DNA of 64,000 bases, from contig JAPZUD010000001.1 of the NCBI GenBank assembly GCA_027533425.1, positions 496,001 to 560,000 on the forward strand, written 5' to 3'. How positions within the stretch are numbered: position 1 is the stretch's first letter; every line of letters starts with the position of its first letter. The translations under genes were made by a program, and so were the position numbers. This document shows positions 27,585 through 50,788 of this stretch, piece after piece. This stretch comes from Beijerinckiaceae bacterium. GTDB taxonomy: Bacteria; Pseudomonadota; Alphaproteobacteria; Rhizobiales; Beijerinckiaceae. The notes below the pieces were generated by a model. That model was given only the letters and a program-made list of their open reading frames with translations. It was not told the DNA's origin and did no database searches.

Positions 27585-27591
27585 TCCAGCC

Positions 27592-32918: not shown

Positions 32919-33527
32919 TCAGCCCGGCATGACCCACGGTGCCTCGGCGAGCCGGCGGGTCCGGAACGCCACGATCTCCTCGGCGTGCCGTCGCGTCAGG
33001 TCGAGATCATCCCAGCCGTTGAGGAGTTGCAGCCGGCGGACGGCGTCGATGGAAAATCCGAAGGATCGCCCACCGGCCTCGATCCGCTGGGTTTCGAGAT
33101 CGACGACAAGGCGGGGCAATTCGGCCGTTTCCAACCCGCCAAGGATCGCCTCGGCATCATCCGGGCTGACCTGCGCCGGAAGGAGCCCGTTCTTGACCGC
33201 ATTCGACGCGAAGATATCGCCGAAGGAGGGCGCGATCACACAGCGTATGCCGTAATCCCAGAGCGCATAGACCGCCGCCTCGCGCGAGGAGCCGGTCCCG
33301 AAGTTCCGCCGCGCCACAATCGCCGAAGCGCCGGCATGGCGCGCGGCATCGAGCGGAAAGCCGAGGCTCTGGCCTTCCGGTCCGAAACGGAGGTCATGCA
33401 GCAGGAAACGGCCATAGCCCTCGCTGCGCGGCCGGCTCATGAAGCGGGCGGGGATCAGCTGGTCGGTATCGACATTGGCGAGGCCAAGCGGGCAGGCGAG
33501 GGCGTCGAGGCGGGTGAAACGCTCCAT
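32919..33527 (-). CDS. leuD: LeuD-like small subunit of an aconitase-family hydro-lyase (isopropylmalate isomerase-like)
   Basis: 202 residues, the usual LeuD length, opening with a GLANVDTDQLIP stretch and containing DYGIRCVIAPSFGDIF and KNGLLP. The active-site segment reads FGTGSSREAA (76-85) where LeuD normally has FGCGSSREHA: the catalytic Ser-Arg pair is kept but Cys becomes Thr and His becomes Ala. It lies three bases after leuC. In this catabolic cluster the pair more likely hydrates or dehydrates a small branched or unsaturated dicarboxylate than makes leucine; true isopropylmalate isomerase cannot be ruled out. Confidence 0.85.
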   Translation of the reverse strand: MERFTRLDALACPLGLANVDTDQLIPARFMSRPRSEGYGRFLLHDLRFGPEGQSLGFPLDAARHAGASAIVARRNFGTGSSREAAVYALWDYGIRCVIAPSFGDIFASNAVKNGLLPAQVSPDDAEAILGGLETAELPRLVVDLETQRIEAGGRSFGFSIDAVRRLQLLNGWDDLDLTRRHAEEIVAFRTRRLAEAPWVMPG

Positions 33528-33530
33528 GGC

Positions 33531-34931
33531 TCAGCCTCGCGCCAGCTTGCGCAGGTCGGTCAGCCGGCCGGTCACGGCGGCTGCAGCGACCATGGCCGGC
33601 GACATCAGATGCGTCCGGGCATCCTTGCCCTGCCGGCCGCGGAAGTTCCGGTTGGTCGTCGAGGCGCAGCGCTCGCCGGCTGCAACGAGATCCCCATTCA
33701 TCCCGACGCACATGGAACAGCCGGAATCCGCCCATTCGAGCCCGGCCTCGCGGAAGATCCGGTCGAGCCCCTCGCGCTCGGCCTGCGCCTTCACGCGCGA
33801 GGATCCGGGTGAAACCAGCCCTGGCACGGCTGCCTTCCGGCCTTTGAGGATCGCCGCTGCAGCGCGGAGATCCTCGATCCGGGCATTGGTGCAGGACCCG
33901 ATGAAGACCCGGTCCACAGCCACCTGCTCGAGCGGCATGCCGGCGCGGAGCCCCATATAGTCCAGCGCCTGCTGGAGATAGCCGGCGCGGGCAGGGTCAG
34001 CCTCGGCGGCAGGGTCGGGCACATGGGCATCGATGGGCAATGCATCCTCGGGGCTGACGCCCCAGGTCACGAGCGGCGCGATGGATCCGGCATCGAGCGC
34101 GATCTCCCGGTCGAATACCGCCCCGGGATCGCTGGCCAGACCCTGCCAGGCCGTGCAGGCCTGTTCGAAGGCGGCACCCTGAGGCGCCATGGGCCGGCCA
34201 CGCAGATAGGCAAAGGTCACGGCATCGGGCGCGACCATGGCGCAACGCGCACCGGCCTCGATCGACATGTTGCAGAGGGTCAGCCGCCCCTCCATCGACA
34301 GGGCAGAAATCGCGTCACCGGCATATTCCAGCGCATGGCCCCGCGCGCCATCGGCCCCGATCGTGCGGATGACTTGCAGGGCAAGATCCTTGGCGCTGAG
34401 GCCAGGCGGCAGCGTGCCGTTGATCCGGATCCGCATGCGTTTCGGCTTCCGCTGCCAGAGCGTCTGCGTCATCAGCACATGCGCGACTTCCGAGGCACCG
34501 ATCCCGAAGGCATAGGCCCCGAGGGCGCCATGGGTGGAGGTGTGGCTGTCGCCGCAGACAACAAGCAGGCCCGGCAGGGTCAGCCCCTGTTCCGGCCCGA
34601 CGACATGGACAATCCCCTGATCGGGATCCTCGAGGCCGAAGAGCCGGAATCCATGCCGCGCGGCATTGCCGGAAAGCCTCTCGACCATGCCGGCAATTTC
34701 CGGATCGGCAATGGCCGGCCGGTTCCGCGTCGGCACATAATGATCGGCGATGCCGAAGGTCAGGCGGGGCTCTGCCACCGGAAGATTGCGCGTGTCCACC
34801 TGCCGAAAGGCATGATGCGAGCCCTCATGCACGAAATGCCGGTCGACCCAGAGCAGGCTCTCGCCATCCTCGCGCGTGACGATGACATGGCTGTCCCACA
34901 CCTTGTCGAAAAGCGTCCGGGCCTGTTCCAT
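33531..34931 (-). CDS. leuC: LeuC-like large subunit, Fe-S hydro-lyase of the aconitase family
   Basis: 466 residues, the length of E. coli LeuC. The three cluster ligands are Cys347 (FIGSCTNARIEDL), Cys405 and Cys408 (DSGCSMC), and the early LWVDRHFVHEGSHHAF region follows the LeuC pattern. Bound [4Fe-4S] catalyses dehydration/hydration of a hydroxy-diacid. Known relatives include isopropylmalate isomerase, citraconate and maleate hydratases and dimethylmalate dehydratase. ATG 34931 is taken; the gene begins 10 bases after the isochorismatase-fold gene ends. Confidence 0.88.
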   Translation of the reverse strand: MEQARTLFDKVWDSHVIVTREDGESLLWVDRHFVHEGSHHAFRQVDTRNLPVAEPRLTFGIADHYVPTRNRPAIADPEIAGMVERLSGNAARHGFRLFGLEDPDQGIVHVVGPEQGLTLPGLLVVCGDSHTSTHGALGAYAFGIGASEVAHVLMTQTLWQRKPKRMRIRINGTLPPGLSAKDLALQVIRTIGADGARGHALEYAGDAISALSMEGRLTLCNMSIEAGARCAMVAPDAVTFAYLRGRPMAPQGAAFEQACTAWQGLASDPGAVFDREIALDAGSIAPLVTWGVSPEDALPIDAHVPDPAAEADPARAGYLQQALDYMGLRAGMPLEQVAVDRVFIGSCTNARIEDLRAAAAILKGRKAAVPGLVSPGSSRVKAQAEREGLDRIFREAGLEWADSGCSMCVGMNGDLVAAGERCASTTNRNFRGRQGKDARTHLMSPAMVAAAAVTGRLTDLRKLARG

Positions 34932-34941
34932 CGGCGTCGCC

Positions 34942-35547
34942 TTATCCGATTTCCGCCAGCATCTCGGCAATGGTGGCGATGCGGGCCACGGGGCGCAAGG
35001 CATCGATGGCCGTCCGGTGGGTTTCCGGCGAGAAGGCCGCGCAGCCATCCTCCAGCACGATGGCGTCGATATCCCTCACATGCGCCTCGCGCACGGTCGA
35101 GGCCACGCCGCCATTGGTGACGATGCCGGCAACCACGAGCTGGCTGATGCCGGTCTTGCGCAGAACCCATTCGAGGCGGCTCATATAGAACGCCGAATAG
35201 GCGACCTTCTCCACCGCGATATCCACCGGTTGCAGGCCATCCACCGTGCGCTGGCCCCAGCTGCCCGGGGCAAAATCGCCCCTGGCGAGGAAGGGGCGGA
35301 GCTGCTTGAGATGCGGCGCAATGATCGGCTCACCGCCCCGGCCCGGCACCAGCGTGAACTGCGTTGCCAGAACCGGCCCGCCCTTGCGGCGGAAGGCGTC
35401 AGCCAGCGGAGCCAGCCGGGCGGGCAGGGCGGCAATCTCCGCCGCGCCCTGGCCCGCGCGGCCATAGGCGCCCTTGGGGTCGAGGAAGTCGTTCTGCAGG
35501 TCCACCAGCAGCAGGCCCGCCCGGGCCATGTCGAACGGTGCGGCCAT
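34942..35547 (-). CDS. Isochorismatase-fold hydrolase lacking the catalytic cysteine
   Basis: 201 residues with the isochorismatase/cysteine-hydrolase fold. Asp16 in LLLVDLQND and Lys114 in VEKVAYSAF fit two members of the catalytic triad. The third position reads TNGG: Gly147 replaces the Cys expected in TNxC; the codons (aat ggc ggc) read clearly. Amidases of this fold (nicotinamidase, N-carbamoylsarcosine and maleamate amidases) need that Cys, whereas isochorismatases such as PhzD carry Gly there and hydrolyse a vinyl ether. So this is probably not an amidase. Start overlaps the hyuA stop by one base. Confidence 0.85.
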   Translation of the reverse strand: MAAPFDMARAGLLLVDLQNDFLDPKGAYGRAGQGAAEIAALPARLAPLADAFRRKGGPVLATQFTLVPGRGGEPIIAPHLKQLRPFLARGDFAPGSWGQRTVDGLQPVDIAVEKVAYSAFYMSRLEWVLRKTGISQLVVAGIVTNGGVASTVREAHVRDIDAIVLEDGCAAFSPETHRTAIDALRPVARIATIAEMLAEIG

Positions 35548-37610
35548 CAGCTGTCCCTTTCCACGATGAGATTGCCGAAAGCATCGACCCGCGCCGCAAG
35601 GCCGGGATCGACGACGATGGTCGAATCCGGCTGTTCCAGAATGGCCGGACCGGCGATCTGCGCGCCGACCGGCAGGTCGAGCCGGGCATAGATCGCCGTC
35701 TCATGCCAGCCCCCGGCAAACCAGACCGGCCGCGTGCCCGTTCTGGCCCCCTCCAGCGTGGTCGTCCCGGAAGGCGCCAGCGCCGCGAGGTCGAATTCGG
35801 GCCGGCGGCCGATGGCCGCCGTGCGCAGATTGACAATCTTCACCGGGATGCCCGGCAGGAGCCGCGAGAAGGCCCGCGAATAGGCGGCCTCGAAAGCGGC
35901 GCGGACATCGGCCTCGGTGAGTTCGACCCGCCCGTCCTTCAGCGTCGCGGCCAGCGGGACGGCGACCGTATGCGTCTGCCCGAGATAATGCATGTCGAGC
36001 TCATAGGCGATATCGATCCGCGTCACCGACAGCGAGGCCCCGGCCACGACAGCACGGGCCGCCTCGCCGGTCTCGACCATCCGGCGGGTCAGGGCGCCGG
36101 TATCCAGCCCGTCCAGCATGAGATTGACCGTCGCCACTTCGTCATGCCGGATATCCGCGATGATGCAACCCAGCGCCGAGGTGATGCCGGGATAGCGCGG
36201 CACCAGAGCCGAACGCAGCCCGACCTCGTGGATGAGCGCCCCGACATGCAGGGCGCCGCCGCCGCCGAAGGGTACGGCGGTGAATTTTGTCGGATCATGG
36301 CCGCGCTCGATGGAGACGAGGCGGATCGCCCCGGCCATTTTCGCATTCGCGACCCGGACAATCGCCTCTGCCGCCGCCTCGACGGACAGGCCCAGCCGGT
36401 CACCGATGGACGCGCCGATCGCCGCCCGCGCGGCCTCGACATCGAGCCGCTTCAGCTTGCCGCCAATCGGCTTGTCGGCATTGATCCGCCCCAGCACGAT
36501 ATTCGCATCGGTGAGTGTCGGCCGGGTATTGCCCTGGGCATAGGCGACGGGGCCCGGCCGCGAGCCGGCGCTTTCCGGCCCGACAGCCAGCAAGCCGCCC
36601 TTGTCGACATGGGCGATCGAGCCGCCACCGGCACCGATGGTCGTGATTTCGATCATGGGCGTCCGGACGACGAGGCCGAAATCGATCGTCGTCTGCGCCG
36701 CGAGCGCCGCTGCGCCGCCAGCGACGAGCGAGACATCGAAGGACGTGCCACCGAGATCCGCCGTCACGATATCCGGGAATCCGGCCGCGCGGGCAATCGC
36801 CGCCGCCGCGATCACCCCGGCCGCCGGGCCGGAAAGCGCGGTGCGGACCGGGAATTTCCGCGCCACCGCAGTCGACATCACCCCGCCATTGGACTGGACG
36901 ATATGGAAGGAGCCGCCGAACCCGTCCGCTGCCAGCGCCTGTTCCAGCTTGCCGAGATAGGACGCCACAACCGGCTGGAGATAGGCATTGAGCGCCAGCG
37001 TGGAGGTGCGCTCGAATTCGCGGATCTCCGGCAGCAACTGGTGCGAGGCCGCGACATGGTCATTCGGCCAGACCGCCTTGACCGCCGCATAGGCGGCCTT
37101 CTCGTTGGCCGGATTGGCATAGGCATTGATGAAGACGATCGCCACGGCCTCGGCCCCGGCCGCCAGCAGCGCCCGGGCAGCCTGCTGGCATTCCTCGGCG
37201 GACACAGCCTGCCGCACCGTGCCATCGGCCAGCACGCGCTCGGCCACGTCGAGCCGCATGTCGCGGGTGGCCACCGGCTCGAAATCGCCCCAGAGGCCCC
37301 AGGTTTTCGGGCGGTCGCGCCGTCGCATCTCCAGTACGTCCCGGAAGCCACGCGTGGTGATCAGGCCGATCCGCGCGCCCTTGCGCTCGAGCAGCGCATT
37401 GGTGCCGACGGTGGTGCCATGCACGATGGCGCCGAGCCGGTCGATTGCATCGAGCTGGCGCAATCCCTCGATGAAGCCGACCGCCTCGTCACCGCGGTTC
37501 GACGGAACCTTCGCTACACGGAAGCTCCGGCTGGCCTCGTCGAAATAGGCGAGATCGGTGAAGGTCCCGCCAACATCCACGCCGACGATCGAACTGCGCA
37601 CCCTGCTCAT
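35547..37610 (-). CDS. hyuA: Hydantoinase/oxoprolinase subunit A (HyuA-like)
   Basis: 687 residues of the HyuA family, with an N-terminal ASKHA-type phosphate motif VDVGGTFTDL and the conserved GTTVGTNALLERKGA, TADLGGTSFDVSL and GAGGGSIAHVD segments. With HyuB it forms ATP-dependent enzymes that either open cyclic amides (5-oxoprolinase, N-methylhydantoinase, caprolactamase) or carboxylate ketones (acetone/acetophenone carboxylases). Which reaction applies is not clear. ATG 37610 overlaps the hyuB stop by four bases. Confidence 0.9.
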   Translation of the reverse strand: MSRVRSSIVGVDVGGTFTDLAYFDEASRSFRVAKVPSNRGDEAVGFIEGLRQLDAIDRLGAIVHGTTVGTNALLERKGARIGLITTRGFRDVLEMRRRDRPKTWGLWGDFEPVATRDMRLDVAERVLADGTVRQAVSAEECQQAARALLAAGAEAVAIVFINAYANPANEKAAYAAVKAVWPNDHVAASHQLLPEIREFERTSTLALNAYLQPVVASYLGKLEQALAADGFGGSFHIVQSNGGVMSTAVARKFPVRTALSGPAAGVIAAAAIARAAGFPDIVTADLGGTSFDVSLVAGGAAALAAQTTIDFGLVVRTPMIEITTIGAGGGSIAHVDKGGLLAVGPESAGSRPGPVAYAQGNTRPTLTDANIVLGRINADKPIGGKLKRLDVEAARAAIGASIGDRLGLSVEAAAEAIVRVANAKMAGAIRLVSIERGHDPTKFTAVPFGGGGALHVGALIHEVGLRSALVPRYPGITSALGCIIADIRHDEVATVNLMLDGLDTGALTRRMVETGEAARAVVAGASLSVTRIDIAYELDMHYLGQTHTVAVPLAATLKDGRVELTEADVRAAFEAAYSRAFSRLLPGIPVKIVNLRTAAIGRRPEFDLAALAPSGTTTLEGARTGTRPVWFAGGWHETAIYARLDLPVGAQIAGPAILEQPDSTIVVDPGLAARVDAFGNLIVERDS

Positions 37611-39346
37611 CGTGCCGCCCCGCTTCTCAGCGCGGTCGTTGCCGCCCCGTCAACCCCGCCGCCGGCATCGAGGACGACGCCATACACATCCCGCGCCGTC
37701 CGCGCGGTGAGGAAATCCAGCCGGACATCCCGGGCCACGGCATCCGGATCGCGCGCCATCGGGGGCCCCCAACCGCCTCCGCCGGGGGATTGCAGCCGGA
37801 TTTCCTGCCCGGGCGCGATCCGGACGCCGGTGATCTTCGAGGCCATGGGCGGCGACTGCGGGCCGGTCTCACTGTCCCAGTGGAACAGGTTGAGCGCACC
37901 GGGCTGGCCACCGGCCACGCCGAACGGCGCATAGCGTCCGCGTTCGCCGAGCAACGCCACCTCTGCGCCGCTTTCCGCCAGGACTTCCAGCGCATAGACC
38001 GCGCCCATCCCGCCGCGATGCTGCCCCGCGCCGGCGCTGTCCGGACGCAGGCCCCATTCGGTGAACATCACGGGATAGGAGGCTTCGAGAATCTCCGCCG
38101 GCGGCATGGTAGCGGTCGAGATCGGGTTGTTGGAATGGTTGAGGCCATCCGTTTCCGGATTGCCGCCCAGCCCGCCACCGAAAAACGAGAACATCACCCA
38201 GCGATCGCCATTGGCCCGGTGGCCGGCGACGGACAGGGCGTTGATCGTGCCGAACGGTGCCGCCGTGGCGCGGGCAGGGTCGGCCTGGGCGAGGGCGCCG
38301 AAAACGACGCCGATCATCCGCAGGATCGTCTCGGTATAGCCGGCCACCGGGCGCGGCGCGGACACGCCGAGAAAGCTCTTGTCCGAAATCTCGAAGGTGA
38401 TCGGCCTCAGGCAGCCGGCATTGGCTGGTACTTCCGTGAAGACATGCTTGAGCGCGACATAGCAGGCCGCGACCGCCGTTGACCGCGCGATATTGACAGG
38501 CCCACGACAGGCCGGCGACGAGCGCGAGAAATCCAGCACCATCGTCTCGCCGGCAATCGTCAGGTCGAGCGCGATGGTCAGCCGCTCATCGGTGATGCCG
38601 TCATTGTCGAGATAATCCTCGAACGTGTAGATGCCGTCGGGCAGGGCGGCGATATTGTCGCGCATCAGCCGCTCGGCGCGCTGCGAGGCCGCCTCCAGCG
38701 CGGCCTCGACGACAGCATCGCCATATTCGTCGATCAGCGCCTGGAACCGCCTCTCGCCGAGATCGAGTGCATTGAGCTGGCCGTTGAGATCGCCCCAGTT
38801 CGATCGCGGCACGCGGCTGTTCGCCTGCAGGATATCGACGATATCCTGCTGCAGCACGCCCTTGCGGAACAGCTTCACCGGCGGGATCAGCACGCCCTCC
38901 TGAAAGCTCTCCACCGCCTTGGGGTTGTAGCCCCCCGGCACATTGCCGCCGATATCGAGCCAATGCCCGACCGAGGCGAGCCAGGCGAAGATCCGCCCCT
39001 GCCGCATCAACGGCTTGACCAGCCGGAAATCGTTGAGATGCGTGCCGCCGGCATACGGATCGTTGAAGAGGAAGATATCGCCTTCCTCAAGCCCGCCATC
39101 CCGCGCGACCTTGTCGATCACCGCCTTCACGGCGAAGGCCATGGCGCCGACAAAGATCGGCAGGCCGTTCTGTCCCTGAACCAGCGTGTCGCCCGTCTCG
39201 CGATGATAGAGCCCGTGGCAGGCATCGCGGGCTTCCGCGATGATCGGGTTGAAGGCCGAGCGATAGAGCGTGGCATCCATCTCGTCGGCAATCTGCTCCA
39301 GCCGTCCGGTCAGGACGGCGAAGGTCACGGGGTCGAGCGTGGTCAT
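37607..39346 (-). CDS. hyuB: Hydantoinase/oxoprolinase subunit B (HyuB-like)
   Basis: 579 residues, HyuB family: DPVTFAVLTGRLEQIADEMDATLYRSAFNPI-type N-terminus (first part cited here only to show family), FNDPYAGGTHLND, SVGHWLDIGG and GGGGWGPP near the end. Partner of hyuA with overlapping ends on both sides (ATGA with hyuA and with the lyase gene, 39343-39346). Size is that of the smaller oxoprolinase/hydantoinase subunit. No third small subunit like acetone carboxylase gamma is seen nearby, which slightly favours ring opening over carboxylation. Confidence 0.9.
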   Translation of the reverse strand: MTTLDPVTFAVLTGRLEQIADEMDATLYRSAFNPIIAEARDACHGLYHRETGDTLVQGQNGLPIFVGAMAFAVKAVIDKVARDGGLEEGDIFLFNDPYAGGTHLNDFRLVKPLMRQGRIFAWLASVGHWLDIGGNVPGGYNPKAVESFQEGVLIPPVKLFRKGVLQQDIVDILQANSRVPRSNWGDLNGQLNALDLGERRFQALIDEYGDAVVEAALEAASQRAERLMRDNIAALPDGIYTFEDYLDNDGITDERLTIALDLTIAGETMVLDFSRSSPACRGPVNIARSTAVAACYVALKHVFTEVPANAGCLRPITFEISDKSFLGVSAPRPVAGYTETILRMIGVVFGALAQADPARATAAPFGTINALSVAGHRANGDRWVMFSFFGGGLGGNPETDGLNHSNNPISTATMPPAEILEASYPVMFTEWGLRPDSAGAGQHRGGMGAVYALEVLAESGAEVALLGERGRYAPFGVAGGQPGALNLFHWDSETGPQSPPMASKITGVRIAPGQEIRLQSPGGGGWGPPMARDPDAVARDVRLDFLTARTARDVYGVVLDAGGGVDGAATTALRSGAAR

Positions 39347-40230
39347 GGCTGTCCTTCGTAGCTCTTGCCCAGGGCCAGCATTTCGGGCGTGCCGATCACG
39401 GCGTTGAGCTCGTCGAAATCGAACATCGCGTTGCGGAATCCGGCCGTCGTGCCGTTCTGCAGGAGGTTCCCGTAGAAGGCCTGCGCGGCATGGGCGATGG
39501 CCCGGACAATCCCGCCGGGGAAGATCACCAGCGCGAAGCCGAGGGCCTCGAGCTCCCGCGCGGCCGTAAGCGGCGTGCGCCCGCCCTCGACCATGTTGGC
39601 CATCAGCGGCAACGTGCCCTTGAGCGCCTCGGTGATGCGGGCCAGTTCCTCGACGCTGCCCGGCGCCTCGACGAACAGCGCATCCGCACCGCTTTCGGCA
39701 TAGAGCGCTGCCCGGTCGATCGCGGCGGAAAACCCTTCGACGGCAATCGCATCGGTCCGGGCGATGATCAGCGTTTCGGCGGAATGGCGTGCATCGGCTG
39801 CCGCCCGCAGCTTGCCGGCCATGTCGGTCGGGGAAATCAGCGTCTTGTCAGCCAGGTGGCCGCAGCGCTTGGGATAGGCCTGATCCTCGATCTGCAGCGC
39901 ATTGGCGCCCGCCCGCTCGAACAGCCGCATCGTGCGCTGCATGTTCAGCGCATTGCCATAGCCGTTATCGGCATCGACGATCAGCGGCGTCGGCACCCGG
40001 TCGCGGATCAGGGCAATCGTCTCGACCACCTCGTTCATCGAGACGAGGCCGATATCCGGCCGCCCGAGCCGCGTATAGGCAATGGCTGCCCCCGAAAGAT
40101 AGAGCGCCTCGGCCCCGGCATCGGTGGCAATCGAGGCACTAAGGGCATCATAGATGCCCGGCGCGAGCAGGATGGGCCGGCGGTTCAGCCGCACCTTCAG
40201 CCCGGGAATGTCATGTCCGTTCTGGCTCAT
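39343..40230 (-). CDS. Isocitrate lyase/PEP mutase-superfamily C-C lyase
   Basis: 295 residues, TIM-barrel fold. Metal-site Asp86/Asp88 in VDADNGYG, Glu115-Asp116 in QIEDQ, and the loop Lys121-Arg-Cys-Gly-His125. KxCGH is the signature of the lyases (isocitrate, methylisocitrate, 2,3-dimethylmalate and related), so C-C cleavage is more likely than phosphonate mutase chemistry despite the phn genes in the window. Products would be pyruvate or glyoxylate plus an acid. Overlaps hyuB and the MmgE/PrpD gene by four bases each. Confidence 0.88.
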   Translation of the reverse strand: MSQNGHDIPGLKVRLNRRPILLAPGIYDALSASIATDAGAEALYLSGAAIAYTRLGRPDIGLVSMNEVVETIALIRDRVPTPLIVDADNGYGNALNMQRTMRLFERAGANALQIEDQAYPKRCGHLADKTLISPTDMAGKLRAAADARHSAETLIIARTDAIAVEGFSAAIDRAALYAESGADALFVEAPGSVEELARITEALKGTLPLMANMVEGGRTPLTAARELEALGFALVIFPGGIVRAIAHAAQAFYGNLLQNGTTAGFRNAMFDFDELNAVIGTPEMLALGKSYEGQP

Positions 40231-41612
40231 GAGACGGCCTCGCCAAGCGTGAGGAAAGCGCGGGTGGAGGGAAGGGTTTCCAGCGCCAGCGCCTGTGTGA
40301 CCACAGCCTCCGCACGCCGGACGCCGAGAAGCGGATCGGCGATCTCGCGGAATTTCGCGATCACATCCGCAGCTGTGTAGGGATCTTCCGTATCGCCCCG
40401 GTTGGTCCGGACCTCATGGACGAGGCTCTCGCCGGTCTCCAGCGTCACCGTCACGCGGGCGGGTCGCAGGCCGGGCAGCATCGCGGTGAGGGCGGGATCC
40501 TCGTGCACCGCGACCCGCCGGGCGAGGGCACGGGTCGTCTCGTCCAGCCGGGCCGGTTCCCGGAAGGCATCCAATGTCGCCGCACCGTTGACGATCGTCG
40601 TCGCCAGCGCGAAAGGCAGCGAGAATTTCGCCGCAAGCATGTTGTCCGGCGCCGGATGGTCGAGCTGCGCCGCCCAGACATAGGTATCGACCCGGATCGC
40701 ACGGATGGCCTCCGGCCGGAGCGGCTTCCCGTGCTGCCGCGTGATCTCCATGAGCGCGTCAACGGCGCCATGCGTATAGCGGCAGGCGGCATGGCGCTTG
40801 AAATAGTTCCGGGCGATTTCCCAGCGGGTGCCAAGCGCCTCGGTCATCACCGCCGGCTCCCAGTTTTCGGCGGCAATCCCGCCATAGACCGAGCCGACAC
40901 CATCCGCCTCGCCGGTAAAGCCCGCTTCGGCCAGCTCCCACGCCATCAGCCCGAGCATGTTGGAAAAGCCGGCATAGCTGTTCCGGATGGTCGCGCCTTC
41001 GAGCATGGTCCGGCGGCTGGTCGTCAGGCCAAGCGAGGAGGCGACATTGATCGTCGAGAGCATCCGGCCGGGGCCCGCGCGGTTCAGCGCCGCCACGCCG
41101 AGCGCCGCGCCGACAACGCCCCAGGTGCCATGTGGATGCATCGTCACCCGAAGCTTCGAGGCCATGCCGATCCGCGCGCCGATCTCGTAGCCGAGGATCA
41201 GCGCCCGGAGGAAGGCCGCGCCGGAGACGTCGCGCAGCCGGGCCGAAGCCATCAGCGCTGGCAGGACATGGATGCCCGGATGACCGCGGGCATATTGGTT
41301 GCCCTCGTCGATCTCCAGCATCGTGCCGGCCGTGCCGTCGAGGAACGCCTCCAGCGCCGGCGAACCGGATTTCCGCGCGCGGAAGCTCTTGCCAAGCCGG
41401 CGGGCGGCTTGCTGCACTTCCGGCTCCGAACGACCGGCCAGGATCGCGCCAAGGCAATCCAGCGCAACCAGCCGCGCACGGCTGACGGCCTCCGCCGGCA
41501 TGTCCTCCAACCTCGTCCGCGAGGCGAAACGGCTCCATTGCCGCAACCAGGCCGGGTGCTTGCCGGTGACGAGGCGAGAGGCGGGAACCACGCCATGGGA
41601 CAGCGTCTTCAT
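40227..41612 (-). CDS. MmgE/PrpD family protein (2-methylcitrate dehydratase-like)
   Basis: 461 residues, MmgE/PrpD fold. The family pattern DEGNQYARGHPGIHVLPAL (part of the active site) is present near residue 100, and the HPHGTWG stretch follows. Members include 2-methylcitrate dehydratase, cis-aconitate decarboxylase and iminodisuccinate epimerase, so substrates are branched di- or tricarboxylates. ATG 41612 has GGGGA seven bases upstream; GTG 41618 is a poorer start. Directly follows livF. Confidence 0.87.
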   Translation of the reverse strand: MKTLSHGVVPASRLVTGKHPAWLRQWSRFASRTRLEDMPAEAVSRARLVALDCLGAILAGRSEPEVQQAARRLGKSFRARKSGSPALEAFLDGTAGTMLEIDEGNQYARGHPGIHVLPALMASARLRDVSGAAFLRALILGYEIGARIGMASKLRVTMHPHGTWGVVGAALGVAALNRAGPGRMLSTINVASSLGLTTSRRTMLEGATIRNSYAGFSNMLGLMAWELAEAGFTGEADGVGSVYGGIAAENWEPAVMTEALGTRWEIARNYFKRHAACRYTHGAVDALMEITRQHGKPLRPEAIRAIRVDTYVWAAQLDHPAPDNMLAAKFSLPFALATTIVNGAATLDAFREPARLDETTRALARRVAVHEDPALTAMLPGLRPARVTVTLETGESLVHEVRTNRGDTEDPYTAADVIAKFREIADPLLGVRRAEAVVTQALALETLPSTRAFLTLGEAVS

Positions 41613-41614
41613 CG

Positions 41615-42316
41615 TCACATCCCCAGATAGGTCTTTTCGAGTTCAGGATCGCGCGCCAGAACGCTGGCCTCGCCCGACAGCGCCACCGTGCCATTGGCCA
41701 GCACATAGGCGCGTGCCGCCAGTTCAAGCGATTGCACGACATTCTGCTCGACCAGCATCACCGCCAGCCCCTGCGCCGCGATGCTGGCAATCAGCGCGAA
41801 CAGTTCCTCGACCAGCAGCGGCGACAGGCCAAGCGAGGGTTCGTCAAGGATCAGCAGCTTCGGCTCGGCCATCAGGCCACGCCCGATCGCCAGCATCTGC
41901 TGCTCGCCGCCGGATAGCGTGCCGGCGAACTGCCGCTCGCGCTCGCGGAGCCGCGGGAAGGTGGTGAAAGCCTGTTCGAGATTGCGGCTGCGGTTGGCCC
42001 GGGCTCGGCGATAGGCACCGAGTTCGAGATTTTCCCGGACCGTCATGTTGGGGAAGATCTTCCGCCCCTCCGGGACATGGATCAGCCCGCGCGCGACAAT
42101 CCCGGCCGCATCCAGCCGCTCGATCGCCTCGCCCTCGAACCGGATGCTCCCGCGTTCGGCCCGGATCAGCCCGGAAAGCGCCCGGTTCAGCGTGGTCTTG
42201 CCGACGCCGTTCGCGCCGAGCACCGCGACGATCTCACCCGCACCGACATTCAGCGAAACGCCCCGCAGCACGGGCATCGCGCCATATCCGGCCACCAGAT
42301 CCTGCACCTCAAGCAT
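41615..42316 (-). CDS. livF: Branched-chain amino acid-type ABC transporter ATP-binding protein LivF
   Basis: 233 residues. Walker A LGANGVGKTT, signature LSGGEQQMLAIGRGLM, Walker B LLILDEPSLGLSP, H-loop VEQN (LivF typically has Gln after Glu). ATG 42316 overlaps the livG end by eight bases. Fifth of the five importer genes that head the 13-gene cluster. Confidence 0.94.
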   Translation of the reverse strand: MLEVQDLVAGYGAMPVLRGVSLNVGAGEIVAVLGANGVGKTTLNRALSGLIRAERGSIRFEGEAIERLDAAGIVARGLIHVPEGRKIFPNMTVRENLELGAYRRARANRSRNLEQAFTTFPRLRERERQFAGTLSGGEQQMLAIGRGLMAEPKLLILDEPSLGLSPLLVEELFALIASIAAQGLAVMLVEQNVVQSLELAARAYVLANGTVALSGEASVLARDPELEKTYLGM

Positions 42317-43073
42317 GGGACGCTCCCTGCTGGGCCTGCATCCGCTTGGCGGCACCATGGCCGAGATAGGCCTCGATCACCTTCGGATCGGCCGCAACCT
42401 CGGCCGGCCGGCCCTTGGCGATCATCCGACCCTGGGCCAGAACGGCCACGATATCGCAAAGCTGCATCACCGCCTGCATCACATGCTCGACGATCAGGAT
42501 CGTCACGCCGGAATCGCGGATCGCCCGCACTACGGGGATCATGTCGCGGATTTCCGACGGGTTGAGCCCGGCGAGCACTTCGTCAAGGAGCAGCAGGCTC
42601 GGCTCCGTCGCCAGCGCCCGCGCCATTTCGAGTCGTTTCCGCCCGGCCACGGTGAGATCACCGGCGGGTTGATCGAGCATCGGACCGAGGCCAAGGCGGT
42701 TCGCGATATCCTCCGCCCGGGCCATGGCGGCCTCGCGGCCGGGATGGCGGAGATAGGCGCCCACGGCGATATTCTCGCGCACCGACAAACCGGCAAAGGG
42801 CTGCACGATCTGGAAGGTCCGCGCAATGCCGATCTCGGCACGCCGATGCGTGGGCAGGGTGGTGATGTCCCGGCCCTGAAAGATCACCGAACCGGCCGTC
42901 GGTTCGGCAAACCCGGCAATGACGGTGAAGAAGGTCGTCTTGCCGGCACCGTTCGGCCCGATGAGCCCGGTGATCGAGCCGGCTTCCACGTCAAGCGAGG
43001 CATCGTCCACCGCCACCAGCCCGCCGAAACGCTTGGTGATGCCGGTACAGCGGAGCAGGGGAGCGGTGCTCAT
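42309..43073 (-). CDS. livG: Branched-chain amino acid-type ABC transporter ATP-binding protein LivG
   Basis: 254 residues. Walker A GPNGAGKTT, the LivG-typical GIARTFQIVQPFAGLSV, a degenerate signature LTVAGRKRLEMARAL, Walker B LLLLDEVLAGLNP and H-loop VEHVMQAV. The signature lacks the LSGGQ core, as often in LivG. ATG 43073 overlaps the livM stop by four bases. Confidence 0.94.
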   Translation of the reverse strand: MSTAPLLRCTGITKRFGGLVAVDDASLDVEAGSITGLIGPNGAGKTTFFTVIAGFAEPTAGSVIFQGRDITTLPTHRRAEIGIARTFQIVQPFAGLSVRENIAVGAYLRHPGREAAMARAEDIANRLGLGPMLDQPAGDLTVAGRKRLEMARALATEPSLLLLDEVLAGLNPSEIRDMIPVVRAIRDSGVTILIVEHVMQAVMQLCDIVAVLAQGRMIAKGRPAEVAADPKVIEAYLGHGAAKRMQAQQGASHA

Positions 43074-44062
43074 GCCCGGCCTCCCCGGAAAGCAGGCATG
43101 ATCCGGCGCAGCACACCGAGCACGCCGCGCGGCGCAAAGGCGACGCAGAAGATCAGCAGCACGCCGAACACCACGAGGTCGATCCCCGGCACCGCGCCGC
43201 CGAGCAGCCAGGTGAAGAAGGTCTTGGTGACCTCGCCAAGCCCGAGCAGCAGCACGGCGCCGGCCAGCGGCCCGAAAACGGTGCCGATCCCGCCGATGAT
43301 CGGCGCCAGCAAGGCTTCCACCGAAATCCACGGCCCGAAGGCGAGATTGGCATCGATATAAAGGAATTTCTGCGCATAGAGGCAGCCGGCTGCTGCCGTG
43401 ATGCCCCCCGACAGCGTGATCGCCTTGAGCTTGACCGCGAGTGCATCCACACCGAGCGCCCGCGCCGCATCCTCGTTCTCGCGCACGGCGACGAGATAGG
43501 CGCCGAACCGGCTGCGGGCAATCCAGTGCGTCAGCAGCAGCACGAAGGCGACAAAGGACAAGGCGAGCCAGTAAAAGCTGCGCTTGTCGGCGAACTGGAA
43601 ATTCGCGCCCTCGATCCGCAGCGGGATCAGCACGCCGGCGGCGCCCCCCGTGAAGGTGGAGGCATTGGCGAGGATGCGGAAAACTTCCGCAAAGGCGAGC
43701 GTGACCAGCGCGAAATAGGAACCGCGCAGCCGCGCCCGGAAGCTGAGATAGCCGAGGATCGTGCCCGTCAGCGCACCCAGCGCGATTGACAGCGGCAGGG
43801 CCAGCCAGGGGTTGAGCCCGAACCGGACCTGCGCCAGGGCGATCCCGTAAGCGCCCATGCCGAAGAACGCCGCATGCCCGAAGGAGAATTGTCCGCCATA
43901 GCCGGCCAGAAGGTTCCAGCCCTGCGCCGCGAGCGTGACGATCAGCACGAAGCCGAGGAAATTCAGGGTTGTATTCGCCGAGAACCCGAAGGGCAGCACG
44001 GCCAAAGCTGCCACCACAATCAGGATCGGCCCATAGCCGCTGGTGAAGAGCCCGCCTTTCAT
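43070..44062 (-). CDS. livM: Branched-chain amino acid-type ABC transporter permease LivM
   Basis: 330-residue polytopic permease, with LLAGYGGQFSFGHAAFFGMGAYG and RGSYFALVTLAFAEVFRI (LivM hallmarks). Its ATG overlaps the livH stop by four bases. Unlike the importer at the left edge, here permease and ATPase domains are separate genes. Confidence 0.94.
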   Translation of the reverse strand: MKGGLFTSGYGPILIVVAALAVLPFGFSANTTLNFLGFVLIVTLAAQGWNLLAGYGGQFSFGHAAFFGMGAYGIALAQVRFGLNPWLALPLSIALGALTGTILGYLSFRARLRGSYFALVTLAFAEVFRILANASTFTGGAAGVLIPLRIEGANFQFADKRSFYWLALSFVAFVLLLTHWIARSRFGAYLVAVRENEDAARALGVDALAVKLKAITLSGGITAAAGCLYAQKFLYIDANLAFGPWISVEALLAPIIGGIGTVFGPLAGAVLLLGLGEVTKTFFTWLLGGAVPGIDLVVFGVLLIFCVAFAPRGVLGVLRRIMPAFRGGRA

Positions 44063-44934
44063 GCCTTGGCTCCGAACAGGCCGGTCGGCCGGAACAACAG
44101 CACGACGAGGAAGATCAGGAAAATGCCGATCTGGCCAAGGCTTTCGCCGAAATAGAGGCCGGACAGGCTCTCGACCACGCCGATGATCAGCCCGCCCGCC
44201 AGCGCGCCGCCGATCGAGCCCATGCCACCGAGCACAACGATGGTGAAGGCCACAAGCACGAAGGCATTGCCGACGCGCGGATTGACGAGGAAGGTCGGCA
44301 TGAGCAGGCAGGCGGCAATGGCGAGGCAGGCCGTGCCGATGCCGAAGGTCACGGCATAGATATGCGCGACATCGATTCCGCAGAGCGCCGCGCCGGTCTT
44401 CTCCTTCGCCACGGCCCGGATGGCCTTGCCGGTATCGCTCCGCGCCAGCAGCAGCCAGAGCAGGGCAGCCACGACCAGGGTGGCGACGAAGGCGATGACC
44501 TTCGGCGTGGACAGGAAGAGCGGCCCGATCTCCATGACCGAAAAGCCGTAGGGCACGTCGATCGACCGTGTATCGGAGCGGAAAATGGCGAGCAGGGCAT
44601 TCTCGATGATGATGGAAACGCCCAGCGTCACCAGCAGGATATTGCCGTCATCGCCATGGCTTGCCGGGGTGATGACGGCGCGCTGGAGCGCGTAGCCAAG
44701 CACAAAGAACAGCGGCGTCAGGATAAAGACAGCAATATAGGGGTCGAGCCCGAAGGCCTGATGCGCGACAAACACCGCGAACATGGCCAGCGTCAGTGTC
44801 GCGCCATGCGCGAAATTGATGATGTGCAGCACGCCATAGATCAGCGTCAGGCCGAGCGCGATCAGCGCATAGACTGCGCCGGTCAGCAGGCCATTGGCGA
44901 GAGCCGAGAGGAAGATGTCGAACTTCAGCATCAT
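44059..44934 (-). CDS. livH: Branched-chain amino acid-type ABC transporter permease LivH
   Basis: About 291 residues, polytopic; ALIALGLTLIYGVLHIINFAHG and the C-terminal LFRPTGLFG are LivH signatures. ATG 44934 or the adjacent ATG 44931 can start it; the Shine-Dalgarno is weak. The gap to livK holds a strong stem-loop (44945-44993). Confidence 0.93.
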   Translation of the reverse strand: MMLKFDIFLSALANGLLTGAVYALIALGLTLIYGVLHIINFAHGATLTLAMFAVFVAHQAFGLDPYIAVFILTPLFFVLGYALQRAVITPASHGDDGNILLVTLGVSIIIENALLAIFRSDTRSIDVPYGFSVMEIGPLFLSTPKVIAFVATLVVAALLWLLLARSDTGKAIRAVAKEKTGAALCGIDVAHIYAVTFGIGTACLAIAACLLMPTFLVNPRVGNAFVLVAFTIVVLGGMGSIGGALAGGLIIGVVESLSGLYFGESLGQIGIFLIFLVVLLFRPTGLFGAKA

Positions 44935-44944
44935 CGAACCGTGC

Positions 44945-44993
44945 AAAAGGATTGCGGGGGCGCGAACGCCCACGCTTGAAGCGGATCCCGCAA
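44945..44993 (-). terminator. Stem-loop between livK and livH (attenuator-like)
   Basis: On the - strand, TTGCGGG (44993-44987) can pair with CCCGCAA (44958-44952), enclosing a GGGCG-TTCG-CGCCC hairpin with a stable UUCG loop (44971-44958); the outer and inner stems share one base. TCCTTTT follows. A partial terminator or RNA-stabilising element would let livK be expressed above the membrane genes. Confidence 0.5.
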
Positions 44994-45016
44994 GGGGGAG
45001 GGCCGTCCCGCGACGG

Positions 45017-46234
45017 TCAGGTCACCGGGAAGATCGGCTTCGCGTTCGCGACCTCGGTCGGGAAGATGATCTTGATATCGCCGTTCTGGACCTGCGTATT
45101 GACCGCCTGCGCCCCGGTATTCTGACCTTCGACGAACTTGGTCGGACCATAGGGCATGATGTGGTCGGAGAAGGTCGAGCTGTTCAGCGCCTCGATGATC
45201 TTCACCCGGTCGGCCGAACCGGCCCGCTCGATCGCATCCGCCAGCACCAGCACCGACGAATAGTTGAGCGGCGTGTTGTAGAGCCAGACCTTGCCGGCGC
45301 GCTCCACCTCCGCCTTCACATTGGCCGTGCGCGGCTTGCGCATATCGGCCCAGTGGTTGCAGTCCATCACGTTCTCGGCCGCCGTCGGGAATTCCTTCAC
45401 GAAGCGGAAATTCGAGGCCGCGCCGTTGAGCACGGCATAGATGCCCTTCGGCTTGATGCGCTGCTGCTGCATGGTGCGGGCGAGGAGGACGAATTCCGAG
45501 TAATAGCTCGACGGAATGACGAGATCCGGGTTCAGCGCGCGGATGCGCAGGGCCACATTCGCCATATCGCGCGACGGCGTCGGATGCGCGACGGTTTCCA
45601 GCACCTCGAAGCCGCGCTTCGGCAGTTCCGCCTGAAGCAGCTTCGCCATGCCCGAGCCGAACAGCCCGTCTTCATGGACGATCACGACCGTCTTGGCCGG
45701 CTTGCCGGCGGCATCATTGAGCTTCACGAGATTGTCGAGCGCCGCACTGGTCACAGAGCCGAAGCCCGGGCCGAAGCGGAAGGTGTTCTTCAGGCCGCGC
45801 TTGACGATCTGGTCCGACACGCCGACATCGACGAGATAGGGAATATCATAACGCGAGGCCGCCTGGCTGGCCGCAAGGCAGATCGGCGAGGCAAAGCCGC
45901 CGACAATCGCCGCGACACCCTCGGCCTGCATGCGCTCGACTTCCTGCGTGCCACCCTCAGGGTTGGACCGGGCATCGCCGAACACCATTTCGAGCTTCGC
46001 GCCACCCATCGACTTGATGCCGCCGGCCGCGTTGAGCTCCTTCAGCGCGATCTCGGCGCCGAGGCGGCCATACTCGCCATCCTGCGCGAGCGCGCCGGTC
46101 ACCGGCTGCAGGATGCCGATCTTGATGGCCGGCGCCTGTGCCCGCAGCACGGCAGGCATGCTGATTGTGGCAATCGAACCGAGCGCAGCGGTCTTCAGAA
46201 GCGACCGGCGGTCAAAGCCGGAAAGTTTCGTCAT
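45017..46234 (-). CDS. livK: ABC transporter substrate-binding protein, LivK-like, Tat-exported
   Basis: 405-residue Peripla_BP_6 protein. The twin-arginine signal DRRSLLKTAA is at residues 8-17 with cleavage likely after LRA near 32. The mature start IKIGILQPVTGALAQDGEYGRLG is the LivK/amide-binding pattern. GAGGAGAA precedes the ATG. It defines the compound entering the 13-gene cluster; ligand unknown but likely an amide, imide or carboxylate given the downstream enzymes. Confidence 0.92.
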   Translation of the reverse strand: MTKLSGFDRRSLLKTAALGSIATISMPAVLRAQAPAIKIGILQPVTGALAQDGEYGRLGAEIALKELNAAGGIKSMGGAKLEMVFGDARSNPEGGTQEVERMQAEGVAAIVGGFASPICLAASQAASRYDIPYLVDVGVSDQIVKRGLKNTFRFGPGFGSVTSAALDNLVKLNDAAGKPAKTVVIVHEDGLFGSGMAKLLQAELPKRGFEVLETVAHPTPSRDMANVALRIRALNPDLVIPSSYYSEFVLLARTMQQQRIKPKGIYAVLNGAASNFRFVKEFPTAAENVMDCNHWADMRKPRTANVKAEVERAGKVWLYNTPLNYSSVLVLADAIERAGSADRVKIIEALNSSTFSDHIMPYGPTKFVEGQNTGAQAVNTQVQNGDIKIIFPTEVANAKPIFPVT

Positions 46235-46355
46235 GGCACGTTCTCCTCTTGGCGGTCCGGCAGGGCCGGTTCGGGTTGTCGCGCGGTCGATCAGACCGGT
46301 TTCGATCCGGACAGGCCCGAGGGCCTGCCCCGAAGGTGCATGCCCGGCACGCGCG

Positions 46356-47192
46356 CTAGAGCGGCGTGATGGACGGCCGGCGCGGGTTGCCCCGGCCGGG
46401 AAGCGGCTTTGTGTCGGTTCCGGGCCGGGTCAGGCTCGAGACGGGAGACCACCGGCGCTCGGCGCCGATGCCTGTCCGGGTCATTTCCATCTGGAAACTG
46501 TGCAGGTCCGGGCGATACAGGGCGGAGAGATATTCGACGCCTCGACCGTGATCGTCATAGACCACACGGGTCATGCTCAGCAGCGGCGAGCCGATCTCGA
46601 CCTGGAGAAGTTCGGCAATTTCCGGCCCGGCCAAGGTGGCGGTCACGGTCTGGCTGGCACGGTCCGCAACAACACCGGAGCGCTCGAGCAAGGTGAGCAG
46701 CGGCGTGCTGGCCAGATCGGCTTCCGAATAGGTCACGCCGATCCGCTCCGGCACATAGGTCGTCAGATGCGAGAATGGCGTGTCATCGATGTAGCGGACG
46801 CGGATGGAATGCTGCACGCGCTCGCCTTCGGCAAGCTTGAGCGCCGCCGAAACGGCCGGTGTCGATGGCTGGTAGCTGAAGGACAGAAGCTTGGCCCGGG
46901 TGGCCCGCCCCATCGCCACGAGATGGGCCAGCATGTTCGAGAGGTCGCCCACCACGCCCTTGCGCGGGCGGGCATCGAGCACGAAGGTCCCCGCGCCCGG
47001 CTGGCGGCGGATCAGCCCGTCCTGCTCGAGCCCTTCGAGGGCCCGGCGGATGGTGACGCGGGACAGGCGATGCTGGGCCGCAAGTTGCGGCTCCGAAGGC
47101 AGGCGATGCCCGGGAGACAGAACCCCCTTCAGGATCTGCTCCTTCAGAAGCAGATACAGGCGTTGCGTCTTGGACGGCTCGATAGCAACCAC
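46356..47192 (-). CDS. GntR/HutC-family transcriptional regulator of the 33-46 kb cluster
   Basis: 278 residues: GntR winged helix (KTQRLYLLLKEQILKG, LAAQHRLSRVTIRRALEGLEQDGLI) and UTRA domain (from about residue 95). Start GTG 47192, with AGGGAG about 11 bases upstream. It is 121 bases before livK on the same strand and divergent from the FAD dehydrogenase, so it probably senses the substrate of the cluster. HutC relatives respond to urocanate-like acids; the ligand here is unknown. The proline-rich C-terminal tail (PVSSLTRPG onward) is unusual. Confidence 0.88.
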   Translation of the reverse strand: MVAIEPSKTQRLYLLLKEQILKGVLSPGHRLPSEPQLAAQHRLSRVTIRRALEGLEQDGLIRRQPGAGTFVLDARPRKGVVGDLSNMLAHLVAMGRATRAKLLSFSYQPSTPAVSAALKLAEGERVQHSIRVRYIDDTPFSHLTTYVPERIGVTYSEADLASTPLLTLLERSGVVADRASQTVTATLAGPEIAELLQVEIGSPLLSMTRVVYDDHGRGVEYLSALYRPDLHSFQMEMTRTGIGAERRWSPVSSLTRPGTDTKPLPGRGNPRRPSITPL

Positions 47193-47220: not shown

Positions 47221-47262
47221 GTTTTTCCAGCTTGTATTTGTATTAGATATAGAACATTTTGC
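47221..47262. promoter_or_regulatory. AT-rich divergent promoter/operator region
   Basis: A 126-base gap separates the HutC regulator (start 47192) from the FAD dehydrogenase (start 47319). Its middle, including CTTGTATTTGTATTAGATAT from 47231, is AT-rich in otherwise GC-rich surroundings and carries TTGTAT twice, six bases apart. It probably holds both promoters and the regulator's site; no perfect palindrome is seen. Confidence 0.4.
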
Positions 47263-47318
47263 TGTCGTCAAGAGCAGACAGCTGAATGACTCGAACCGGA
47301 ACGCGGGAGAAGGATGCC

Positions 47319-50191: not shown

Positions 50192-50200
50192 GGGATGGCC

Positions 50201-50698
50201 TCACCAGGGCATGGGCAGGGGCCCCGGCGGCAAGGGAACGCGCAGGAGCTTCACGAAGACAAGATGGATGCCCAGCGCTCCGAGGACCGCCACCGGCAGG
50301 ATCAGGCGCCGCTTCGCGTTGAGGGCGAAGGCCAGGATGGCGATCATCACCGCTGCAACCGGCACGAAGCCGACACGCTCCGACAGGAAGTAATAGACCA
50401 CCATCAAGGCGGGCGGCAGGAAAGGGAACCAGCGGCGGCTACGCTGGAAGGCCTCGGCCTCCGGATCGGGCTGCCGGTGCTTGGCAAGTTCGGCCTCGGC
50501 CTGCTCCTCGAAGCTGCGCCCGATATGCAGCGCGATGAGGATCCCGACAATCATCAGGCCGGAGCCGACAACCATCGGAAAGGCACTCGGCCCGACCTGC
50601 TGCCCGGGCACCGGCGGAAGGCGCGAGCCGCCCCAGAACGCGGCCGCACCGAGCAGCGCAAGGAACACGCCGGAAATCCGGTCGGAGATCCGCATCAT
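50201..50698 (-). CDS. tctB: Tripartite tricarboxylate transporter small membrane subunit TctB
   Basis: 165 residues with about four hydrophobic segments, TctB/DUF1468 family: GVFLALLGAAAFWGGSRL then VGPSAFPMVVGSGLMIVGI. An ATG ATG start at 50698 follows a GAAAGGA box. Order tctC, tctB, tctA is the standard one. Confidence 0.92.
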   Translation of the reverse strand: MMRISDRISGVFLALLGAAAFWGGSRLPPVPGQQVGPSAFPMVVGSGLMIVGILIALHIGRSFEEQAEAELAKHRQPDPEAEAFQRSRRWFPFLPPALMVVYYFLSERVGFVPVAAVMIAILAFALNAKRRLILPVAVLGALGIHLVFVKLLRVPLPPGPLPMPW

Positions 50699-50709
50699 CC
50701 AGTCCTTTC

Positions 50710-50747: not shown

Positions 50748-50788
50748 CATGTCGCCCTGCTGCCGCAGGGAGTGCCGGTCTGCCGGCG

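Follow-up and report, generated by a model that had tools for sequence, protein, structure and literature searches.

A recurrent, regulated alphaproteobacterial gene cassette with a cysteine-less isochorismatase-fold protein, tentatively assigned to the breakdown of a cyclic imide or lactam

Thirteen genes on the minus strand of a 64,000-nucleotide stretch of a Beijerinckiaceae genome (contig JAPZUD010000001.1, positions 496,001 to 560,000; hereafter the window) form, together with a divergently encoded flavoprotein, P48, a cassette that recurs across the Alphaproteobacteria, in many bacteria of soil, plants and water. The thirteen genes encode a HutC-like regulator, a LivKHMGF importer, an MmgE/PrpD family protein, a lyase of the PrpB/PEP-mutase superfamily, the paired subunits HyuA and HyuB (HyuAB), an isochorismatase-fold protein (Ich) and the aconitase-family pair LeuC and LeuD (LeuCD). 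Our tentative reading, held with somewhat less than even confidence, is that the whole serves the regulated catabolism of a small cyclic imide or lactam with a five-membered ring; the likeliest candidate is an alkyl-substituted maleimide or the corresponding saturated compound. Gene content, conservation, active-site residues, a shared motif and enzyme swaps between clusters were observed directly and carry the argument. The parts belong to known families; our literature searches, judged by titles and abstract openings, turned up no description of this gene set, of the combination or of the uniform Cys-to-Gly family to which Ich belongs, and papers pairing ‘hydantoinase’ with ‘isochorismatase’ are, by title, on other subjects.

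Linkage was followed around both the lyase and Ich. Among 61 genomes (the window’s own and 60 relatives), 37 held a lyase homologue at E 1e-30 or better. Twenty-four lyase places, the window’s included, reached at least 56% identity, and surroundings were read for 21, leaving out the window itself, one unread place and L022 on a 3.3-kb contig; HyuB lay beside the lyase in 17 of the 21, the exceptions being L034, L035, L057 and L061. The 35 neighbourhoods read in total comprise 14 more with lower lyase identity, none of which had any HyuA, HyuB or Ich match. Scanning named genomes with an Ich alignment yielded at least 594 stretches and at least 536 relatives at E 1e-3 or better. In the best 80 loci, counted at 45% identity or more within at most 10 kb on each side and with flanks often cut by contig ends, we found HyuA in 75, HyuB and the lyase in 73 each, LivF in 69, LivK in 64, P48 in 50, LeuC in 38, LeuD in 37, MmgE/PrpD in 33 and the regulator in 31. 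LeuC frequently lies just beyond the 10-kb flank of Ich: among 102 Ich loci, a LeuC of the window’s family was present in 57, a different LeuC in 3 and none in the available stretch in 42, and 27 of the 28 full-flank loci among those 42 have a LeuC (66–73% identity) within 20 kb of Ich if matching coordinates are taken as the same contig. The 102 loci include duplicates, the same contig having been reached twice (e.g., L052 and L069), and comparison over the central 80 residues leaves 94 distinct sequences. When the class was sampled evenly, Ich occurred at E 1e-50 or better in 19 of 289 genomes, the window’s included. By record titles the hosts include Beijerinckiaceae, Azospirillum, Methylobacterium, Microvirga, Bosea, Rhizobium, Bradyrhizobium, Roseomonas and Rhodoplanes, to which plasmid records add Sulfitobacter, Tistrella, Variovorax and Paraburkholderia. 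By eye, the flanking families found in at least four loci looked like shadow open reading frames (ORFs), fragments of core genes, a racemase family or unrelated neighbours, and no further pathway gene was recognised among them. A preliminary description made from the window’s letters had proposed a single cassette leading from import to central metabolism, to be given up if the genes proved usually unlinked in other genomes; the genome searches for co-occurrence and the linkage over many genera speak for the proposal, and the cassette is more widely conserved than could be seen from the window alone.

In the route that we propose, LivKHMGF would bring in the ring compound, P48 would desaturate it when needed, HyuAB would use ATP to open the ring, giving a half-amide of the maleamate type from which the Cys-less Ich would take off the amide nitrogen, LeuCD would hydrate the resulting cis-unsaturated dicarboxylate and the lyase would cleave the substituted malate to a 2-oxo acid and a carboxylic acid. 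Because of the enzyme swaps between clusters, the presence of LeuCD and the alkylmalate-type lyase, this chain from imide to half-amide, cis-unsaturated dicarboxylate, malate and finally 2-oxo acid plus acid appears the simplest; it would use each core enzyme once, with no step missing. Besides the multi-genus linkage, an imide or lactam is favoured by the lactamase residues of HyuAB, the replacement of HyuAB by PuuE-like proteins, the EGG motif of the lyase and the likeness of LivK to a pyroglutamate-binding protein.

The window’s HyuA carries the ATP motifs DxGGTxTD, DxGGT and GxxPGP, and all 95 HyuA homologues compared conserve the three Asp columns; the Asp-His-Asp-His metal tetrad is likewise conserved by all 95 HyuB homologues at 55% identity or more. 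A study of caprolactamase, an enzyme of the ATP-dependent lactamase family, describes both features (PMC8453981). By these residues HyuAB belong to that family (HyuAB/OplAB/CapAB), and ATP-dependent opening of a lactam, imide or hydantoin ring is the activity predicted for them. Motifs and tetrad are common to caprolactamase, N-methylhydantoinase and 5-oxoprolinase; against the caprolactamase CapAB equivalog models, however, the pair scores only 504.6 and 320.9 bits where the cut-off is 1000 each, that is, half of it for the alpha and a third for the beta subunit. We know of no ATP-dependent lactamase pathway that includes LeuCD and a lyase. The importer fits a five-membered ring as well. The LivK model (mean pLDDT 87.5) best matches 8wch, SAR11_0655 with a co-purified ligand that the structure title gives as L-pyroglutamate, a five-membered lactam (E 3.4e-32, 29% identity); the next structural match, a leucine-bound protein, has E 3.1e-25, and the sequence search agrees with the ranking of 8wch.

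Ich is the enzyme without the catalytic cysteine that its relatives require. An Asp-Lys-Cys triad defines the cysteine amidases of the isochorismatase-like superfamily (PMC3581539). In Ich, Gly occupies the catalytic-Cys column at all 102 loci (94 distinct), and Asp16 and Lys114 are kept in the same loci; 80 of the 102 were retrieved with patterns that include Asp and Lys, a selection that leaves the Gly alone unaffected. An ordinary cysteine amidase was rejected on this count. The family assignment in the preliminary description stands, with the qualification that the usual cysteine amidase activity cannot be assumed; public records nonetheless label members ‘cysteine hydrolase’ (H2, H5, H6, H12, H14–H19, H22, H23), and in four of these (H2, H12, H14, H15) the Gly was read directly. 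When aligned with Ich, E. coli EntB has Gly at the same column and RutB has Cys, so that Ich matches the Asp-Lys-Gly residues of the EntB type, for which E. coli EntB was the sole comparison. In sequence searches the matches rank as 3kl2 (8e-19; an uncharacterised protein with Cys), triuret hydrolase (2e-17), RutB (3e-15), EntB (7e-10) and NicF (1.6e-5), with YecD also outranking EntB. The structural model of Ich has a mean pLDDT of 79.9, falling below 50 at residues 22–25 and averaging about 57–62 across residues 71–100. Its nearest fold neighbours are 3kl2, biuret and triuret hydrolases and YecD (E 7e-12 to 5e-11), with AngB (2.8e-10), RutB (3.1e-10), NicF (7e-10) and EntB (9e-10) close behind; NicF (3ot4) ranks 36th. 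Ich is thus not closest to EntB, PhzD or VibB, clearly so by sequence and by a small margin in fold. Judged by sequence and modelled structure it is nearer the amidases, yet without their nucleophile.

These features bear on an alternative that we consider unlikely, in which Ich is a true isochorismatase acting not on an amide but on the C–O or C–N vinyl bond of an enol ether or enamine, the latter produced by HyuAB from a 5-ylidene or otherwise unsaturated lactam. The Gly shared with E. coli EntB, the isochorismatases AngB, VibB and EntB among the fold neighbours, the tautomerase-SnoaL fusion proteins of some clusters and the possibility that P48 introduces the unsaturation all suit it. Against it count the higher sequence ranks of 3kl2, triuret hydrolase, YecD and RutB, the narrow fold margin in the same direction, and the Cys carried by the protein that takes the place of Ich in related clusters. 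Compared with EntB/PhzD themselves, Ich agrees at the Asp, Lys and Gly columns of EntB but scores lower to them in sequence, and slightly lower in fold, than to the best amidases, and the context of the cassette is catabolic.

Those related clusters provide the comparison on which the order of the central steps depends. Seven sister clusters (L034, L035, L171, L182, L183, L185, L190) have a lyase of 55–61% identity, a pair of the aconitase type, two proteins like PuuE and an isochorismatase-fold protein that possesses the Cys; matches to HyuA and Ich-Gly are absent from all seven. L171 additionally retains the regulator, LivKHMGF and P48. In L034, an 84-residue HyuB-like frame piece (79% identity) directly after the lyase looks like the remnant of a HyuAB pair replaced at the same place. 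The Cys is kept in 23 of 23 PuuE-associated isochorismatase-fold proteins, and among solved structures the PuuE-like protein is related to PuuE allantoinases and to polysaccharide deacetylases. Because PuuE-like and Cys-containing isochorismatase-fold proteins swap with HyuAB and Ich, HyuAB would act as a ring-amide hydrolase, with the isochorismatase-fold step next. The betaproteobacterial loci L151 and L152 carry a different aconitase-type pair inside the operon, and for this reason an aconitase-class hydratase seems needed. As a separate observation, the Cys-containing protein of the PuuE unit occurs in 22 of 385 genomes of the class (23 places, 20 of them newly read, one already inside L171 and two unread), and L180, L181, L191 and others have the unit of two PuuE-like proteins and the Cys-containing protein, often without the lyase.

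The same swap can be turned towards hydantoins or other cyclic ureides, the PuuE-like replacements of HyuAB being of the allantoinase family. HyuAB would then produce an N-carbamoyl acid, and LeuCD and the lyase would handle the carbon skeleton later. N-methylhydantoinase is the nearest solved structure to HyuA, and Ich has biuret, triuret and ureidoacrylate hydrolases among its fold neighbours. We rate this as slightly less probable than an isochorismatase-type reaction. Against it, Ich is without the Cys that the carbamoyl-removing members known to us use, and by eye no family recurring next to the core would convert an amino acid to the acid taken by LeuCD.

The last two steps find better-known counterparts. 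The lyase belongs to the PrpB/PEP-mutase superfamily by its KxCGH motif and family profile, with 272.3 bits to the methylisocitrate lyase PrpB equivalog, below the cut-off of 354.4. All 98 homologues at 55% identity or more have KRCGH and EGG; among 15 more distant ones, EFG occurs in five and EGG in three. In the alignment PrpB shows EFG and the petal death protein EGG, which places the window’s lyase in the EGG type; lyases of this type take alkylmalates. The PrpB of the 2-methylcitrate cycle is therefore alike in superfamily and KRCGH and differs in having EFG instead of EGG. LeuC exceeds its family cut-off, and its three cluster-ligating Cys residues are kept in 55 of 55 homologues at 55% identity or more; a second LeuC (54% identity) lies elsewhere in the genome, and the cassette LeuCD is not the sole copy. 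A hydratase of the LeuCD type followed by a PrpB-superfamily lyase is also the ending of the 2,3-dimethylmaleate branch of nicotinate fermentation (DmdAB and dimethylmalate lyase), and the window’s enzyme is homologous to the solved 2,3-dimethylmalate lyase (3fa3). The parallel drawn with this pathway in the preliminary description holds for these two steps and not for the remainder: nicotinate fermentation, found in an anaerobe, has neither HyuAB nor an isochorismatase-fold step and enters by a mutase from 2-methyleneglutarate. Aerobic nicotinate degradation (NicF, NicE) resembles the cassette in placing an isochorismatase-fold protein, a fold neighbour of Ich, near maleate; it differs in proceeding by an isomerase to fumarate instead of a hydratase and a lyase, and NicF, a cysteine amidase, is a weak match to the Gly-bearing Ich. 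The MmgE/PrpD protein, whose nearest solved structures are of the IDS-epimerase and IRG1/cis-aconitate decarboxylase types, had been counted among the core steps; this was not borne out, since it appears optional, being absent from more than half of the best 80 loci.

Expression of the cassette is probably controlled by the HutC-like regulator, which we predict to bind a TGT-N12-ACA palindrome and to sense a pathway intermediate. A de novo search of 17 dereplicated regulator upstream regions plus the window (added though nearly identical to L050) gave the motif TGTtCTATAtttAATACA with a log-likelihood of 187.5, against 58.5–69.0 in four base-permuted control sets run with half the seeds. In the window it lies in the 93-bp stretch between the regulator and P48, and four further places in the genome match it with two mismatches. 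We next built a symmetrised matrix from 13 training sites and scored additional loci with it, taking 3000 random stretches as background. Among the true outsiders to motif discovery, L151, L152, L173 and L176 scored with empirical p ≤0.004, L171 and L150 with about 0.02 and L175 with 0.06; L059, L076, L149 and L153, outside the training but part of the discovery, had p ≤0.008. The 99% background score was reached by 26 of 59 regulator upstream regions, and the remainder may be true absences or misplaced starts. The operator is also present in variants without close HyuAB, namely L057 and L122 (both in the training), L076 and L173.

P48, with its occurrence in 50 of 80 loci and the operator that it shares with the regulator, is part of the cassette, and the predicted site likely places it under the regulator’s control. 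The preliminary description was right about the thirteen genes and incomplete in missing P48, the operator, the Cys-to-Gly replacement in Ich and a downstream MFS transporter; as a whole it is partly supported, correct in outline and incomplete or wrong in details. Fumarate and urocanate reductases are nearest to P48. Flavoproteins of the fumarate reductase type have a catalytic Arg and substrate-binding His and Arg residues. In P48, R296, H267, H410 and Tyr452 are invariant in 62 homologues; the first three align with reductase residues and Tyr452 replaces a reductase Arg. Elsewhere, L167, L168 and L170 have the same LivKHMGF importer directly followed by P48, with the remainder of the cassette absent, and because of this arrangement P48 may act first on the imported compound. 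A RidA-like protein, named by eye, lies beside the importer-P48 pair of L167.

P48 and the MmgE/PrpD protein also enter a further alternative, a six-membered imide of the citrazinate type, which we regard as quite improbable. HyuAB would yield cis-aconitamide and Ich cis-aconitate, with LeuCD and the lyase working as aconitase and isocitrate-lyase analogues, so that the same enzymes would again be used once each. P48 reaches 154 bits with the tricarballylate dehydrogenase model (cut-off 369), an enzyme whose product is cis-aconitate, and MmgE/PrpD resembles cis-aconitate decarboxylases. On the other hand, the hosts are expected to hold the aconitase of the tricarboxylic acid cycle, beside which a dedicated pair would be superfluous, inspection by eye showed no hydroxylase family recurring around the core, and P48 is without one Arg present in fumarate reductases; our literature search turned up no paper on the citrazinate pathway. 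Finally, the homology of HyuA and HyuB to acetone and acetophenone carboxylase subunits would allow a ketone pathway, which is very improbable and is disfavoured, in line with the ring opening already suggested in the preliminary description, considering scores far under the acetophenone carboxylase cut-offs, the lactamase residues, the absence of a third carboxylase subunit among the thirteen genes and the replacement of HyuAB by PuuE-like proteins.

Several points weigh against a five-membered imide or lactam as the substrate. We infer the substrate, the order of the steps, every reaction and the binding of the regulator. The role given to P48 is a guess, and P48 is absent from 30 of the 80 loci at the cut-off used, some of them cut by contig ends. 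Ich, having no Cys, may not cleave amides at all, and the maleamate amidase NicF matches it more weakly than EntB does (1.6e-5 vs 6.9e-10). PuuE acts on a hydantoin-type ring, and its use as a replacement does not force an imide; most loci of the PuuE/Ich-Cys unit are without this lyase, one at 45% identity or more being found in 8 of 23, some on short contigs. The nearest LivK structure is of low identity. Several variants are also unexplained by the simple route. In L076 and L096 Ich is accompanied by a flavin monooxygenase, by a protein resembling arylmalonate decarboxylase and by an NMT1-type transporter, and close HyuAB are lacking; the opposite strand of L076 encodes, at a distance of 5 kb, a HyuAB-like pair of distant similarity (37% and 29%). 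L150, from Tistrella, has HyuAB, Ich, an acyl-CoA dehydrogenase, a CoA transferase and LeuCD with no lyase match. Six loci carry two Asp/Glu-racemase proteins, and seven carry a tautomerase-SnoaL fusion.

Some other features of these variants deserve mention. The Tistrella HyuA (L150:10917-12985) matches in two pieces and is absent from the record’s gene table. OYE-type proteins occur in L154, L056 and L173. The last of these (L173:863-16435) brings together the regulator, LivKHMGF, the lyase, two PrpD, two P48, the OYE-type protein, a tautomerase and racemase-family genes, with no HyuAB, Ich or LeuCD match, and PrpD may take the hydratase step there. Roughly 8 kb from the lyase of L034, an ORF (L034:1013-1498) looks by eye like the 2Fe-2S small subunit of a molybdenum hydroxylase.

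Under the favoured assignment to a five-membered imide or lactam, a more specific and doubtful proposal is that Ich is an amidase whose missing nucleophile is supplied by the substrate, the cassette being dedicated to alkylmaleimides such as methylethylmaleimide or haematinic acid from the breakdown of chlorophyll, haem and bilins. The carboxylic group of a maleamic acid would attack the neighbouring amide, and the Asp and Lys of Ich would suffice for proton transfer. Dialkyl maleamic acids react fastest, and alkylmaleimides arise naturally through chlorophyll and haem breakdown. Intramolecular attack of a neighbouring carboxylic acid on the amide of maleamic acids is reportedly a classic reaction, ascribed to Kirby and Lancaster. 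If the proposal is true, the cassette would become a candidate for degrading ring fragments derived from chlorophyll and haem, and the Cys-to-Gly family a compact test case of substrate-assisted catalysis. More generally, a widespread cassette undescribed in the literature found would mark a common natural compound with an unrecognised bacterial breakdown.

Family profile searches of the window’s proteins and their coordinates confirm the thirteen genes, described earlier as lying on one strand with overlaps or short gaps, at 32919–47192 (Table 1). Most junctions are overlaps of 1–4 nt, that between LivG and LivF being 50 nt; gaps separate the regulator from LivK (121 nt), LivK from LivH (43 nt), Ich from LeuC (10 nt) and LeuC from LeuD (3 nt). 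The starts of LivG and LeuC were set inside longer mechanical ORFs. A scan for promoters and terminators in this region gave a number of sites not above that of shuffled sequence.

Table 1. Features of the cassette and its immediate surroundings in the window (coordinates count from the window’s first nucleotide).
Feature	Coordinates	Strand	Evidence and remarks
GntR/HutC-type regulator with UTRA ligand domain	46356..47192	-	PF07702 7e-35, PF00392 1e-18; HutC model 7.6e-35, 120 bits, under cut-off 220
Operator palindrome TGTTCTATATCTAATACA, probable regulator site	47239..47256	.	De novo motif; sole 0-mismatch site in the 3.75-Mb genome
P48, divergent FAD flavoprotein, fumarate-reductase/urocanate-reductase-like	47286..48719	+	Frequent cassette partner; operator region common to the regulator
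LivK-type substrate-binding protein	45017..46234	-	Nearest solved structure SAR11_0655
LivH-type permease	44059..44973	-	Family profile
LivM-type permease	43070..44062	-	Family profile
LivG-type ATPase	42309..43073	-	LivG model 1.4e-60, 205 bits, under cut-off 362
LivF-type ATPase	41615..42358	-	Family profile; alternative start at 42316
MmgE/PrpD family protein, accessory	40227..41618	-	PF19305/PF03972
PrpB/PEP-mutase superfamily lyase	39343..40230	-	KRCGH and NMVEGG motifs; PrpB profile match under cut-off
HyuB/CapB-like subunit	37607..39346	-	PF02538 4e-169; Asp-His-Asp-His metal site
HyuA/CapA-like ATP-binding subunit	35547..37610	-	PF01968, PF05378, PF19278
Ich, isochorismatase-fold protein	34942..35547	-	PF00857 1.8e-39; Asp16, Lys114, Gly147 at catalytic-Cys position
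LeuC-type aconitase-family large subunit	33531..34931	-	NF009116 733 bits, cut-off 531
LeuD-type small subunit	32919..33527	-	Family profile
MFS_2 transporter	31536..32873	-	45 nt downstream of LeuD; close relatives only

On the far side of P48, and adjoining it, genes for TctA, TctB, TctC and a UxaC-type glucuronate isomerase occupy positions 48680–53584 on the minus strand; they flank the cassette in a few relatives only. At the opposite end, an Amidohydro_3-like protein (below cut-off), a DUF1045 protein and a hexapeptide-repeat protein are encoded at 26445–29517 on the plus strand, a group that we take to resemble the end of a phosphonate (C-P lyase) operon. Between this group and the cassette, which it adjoins, lies an SbmA/BacA-like ABC transporter at 29633–31531, present in some close relatives.

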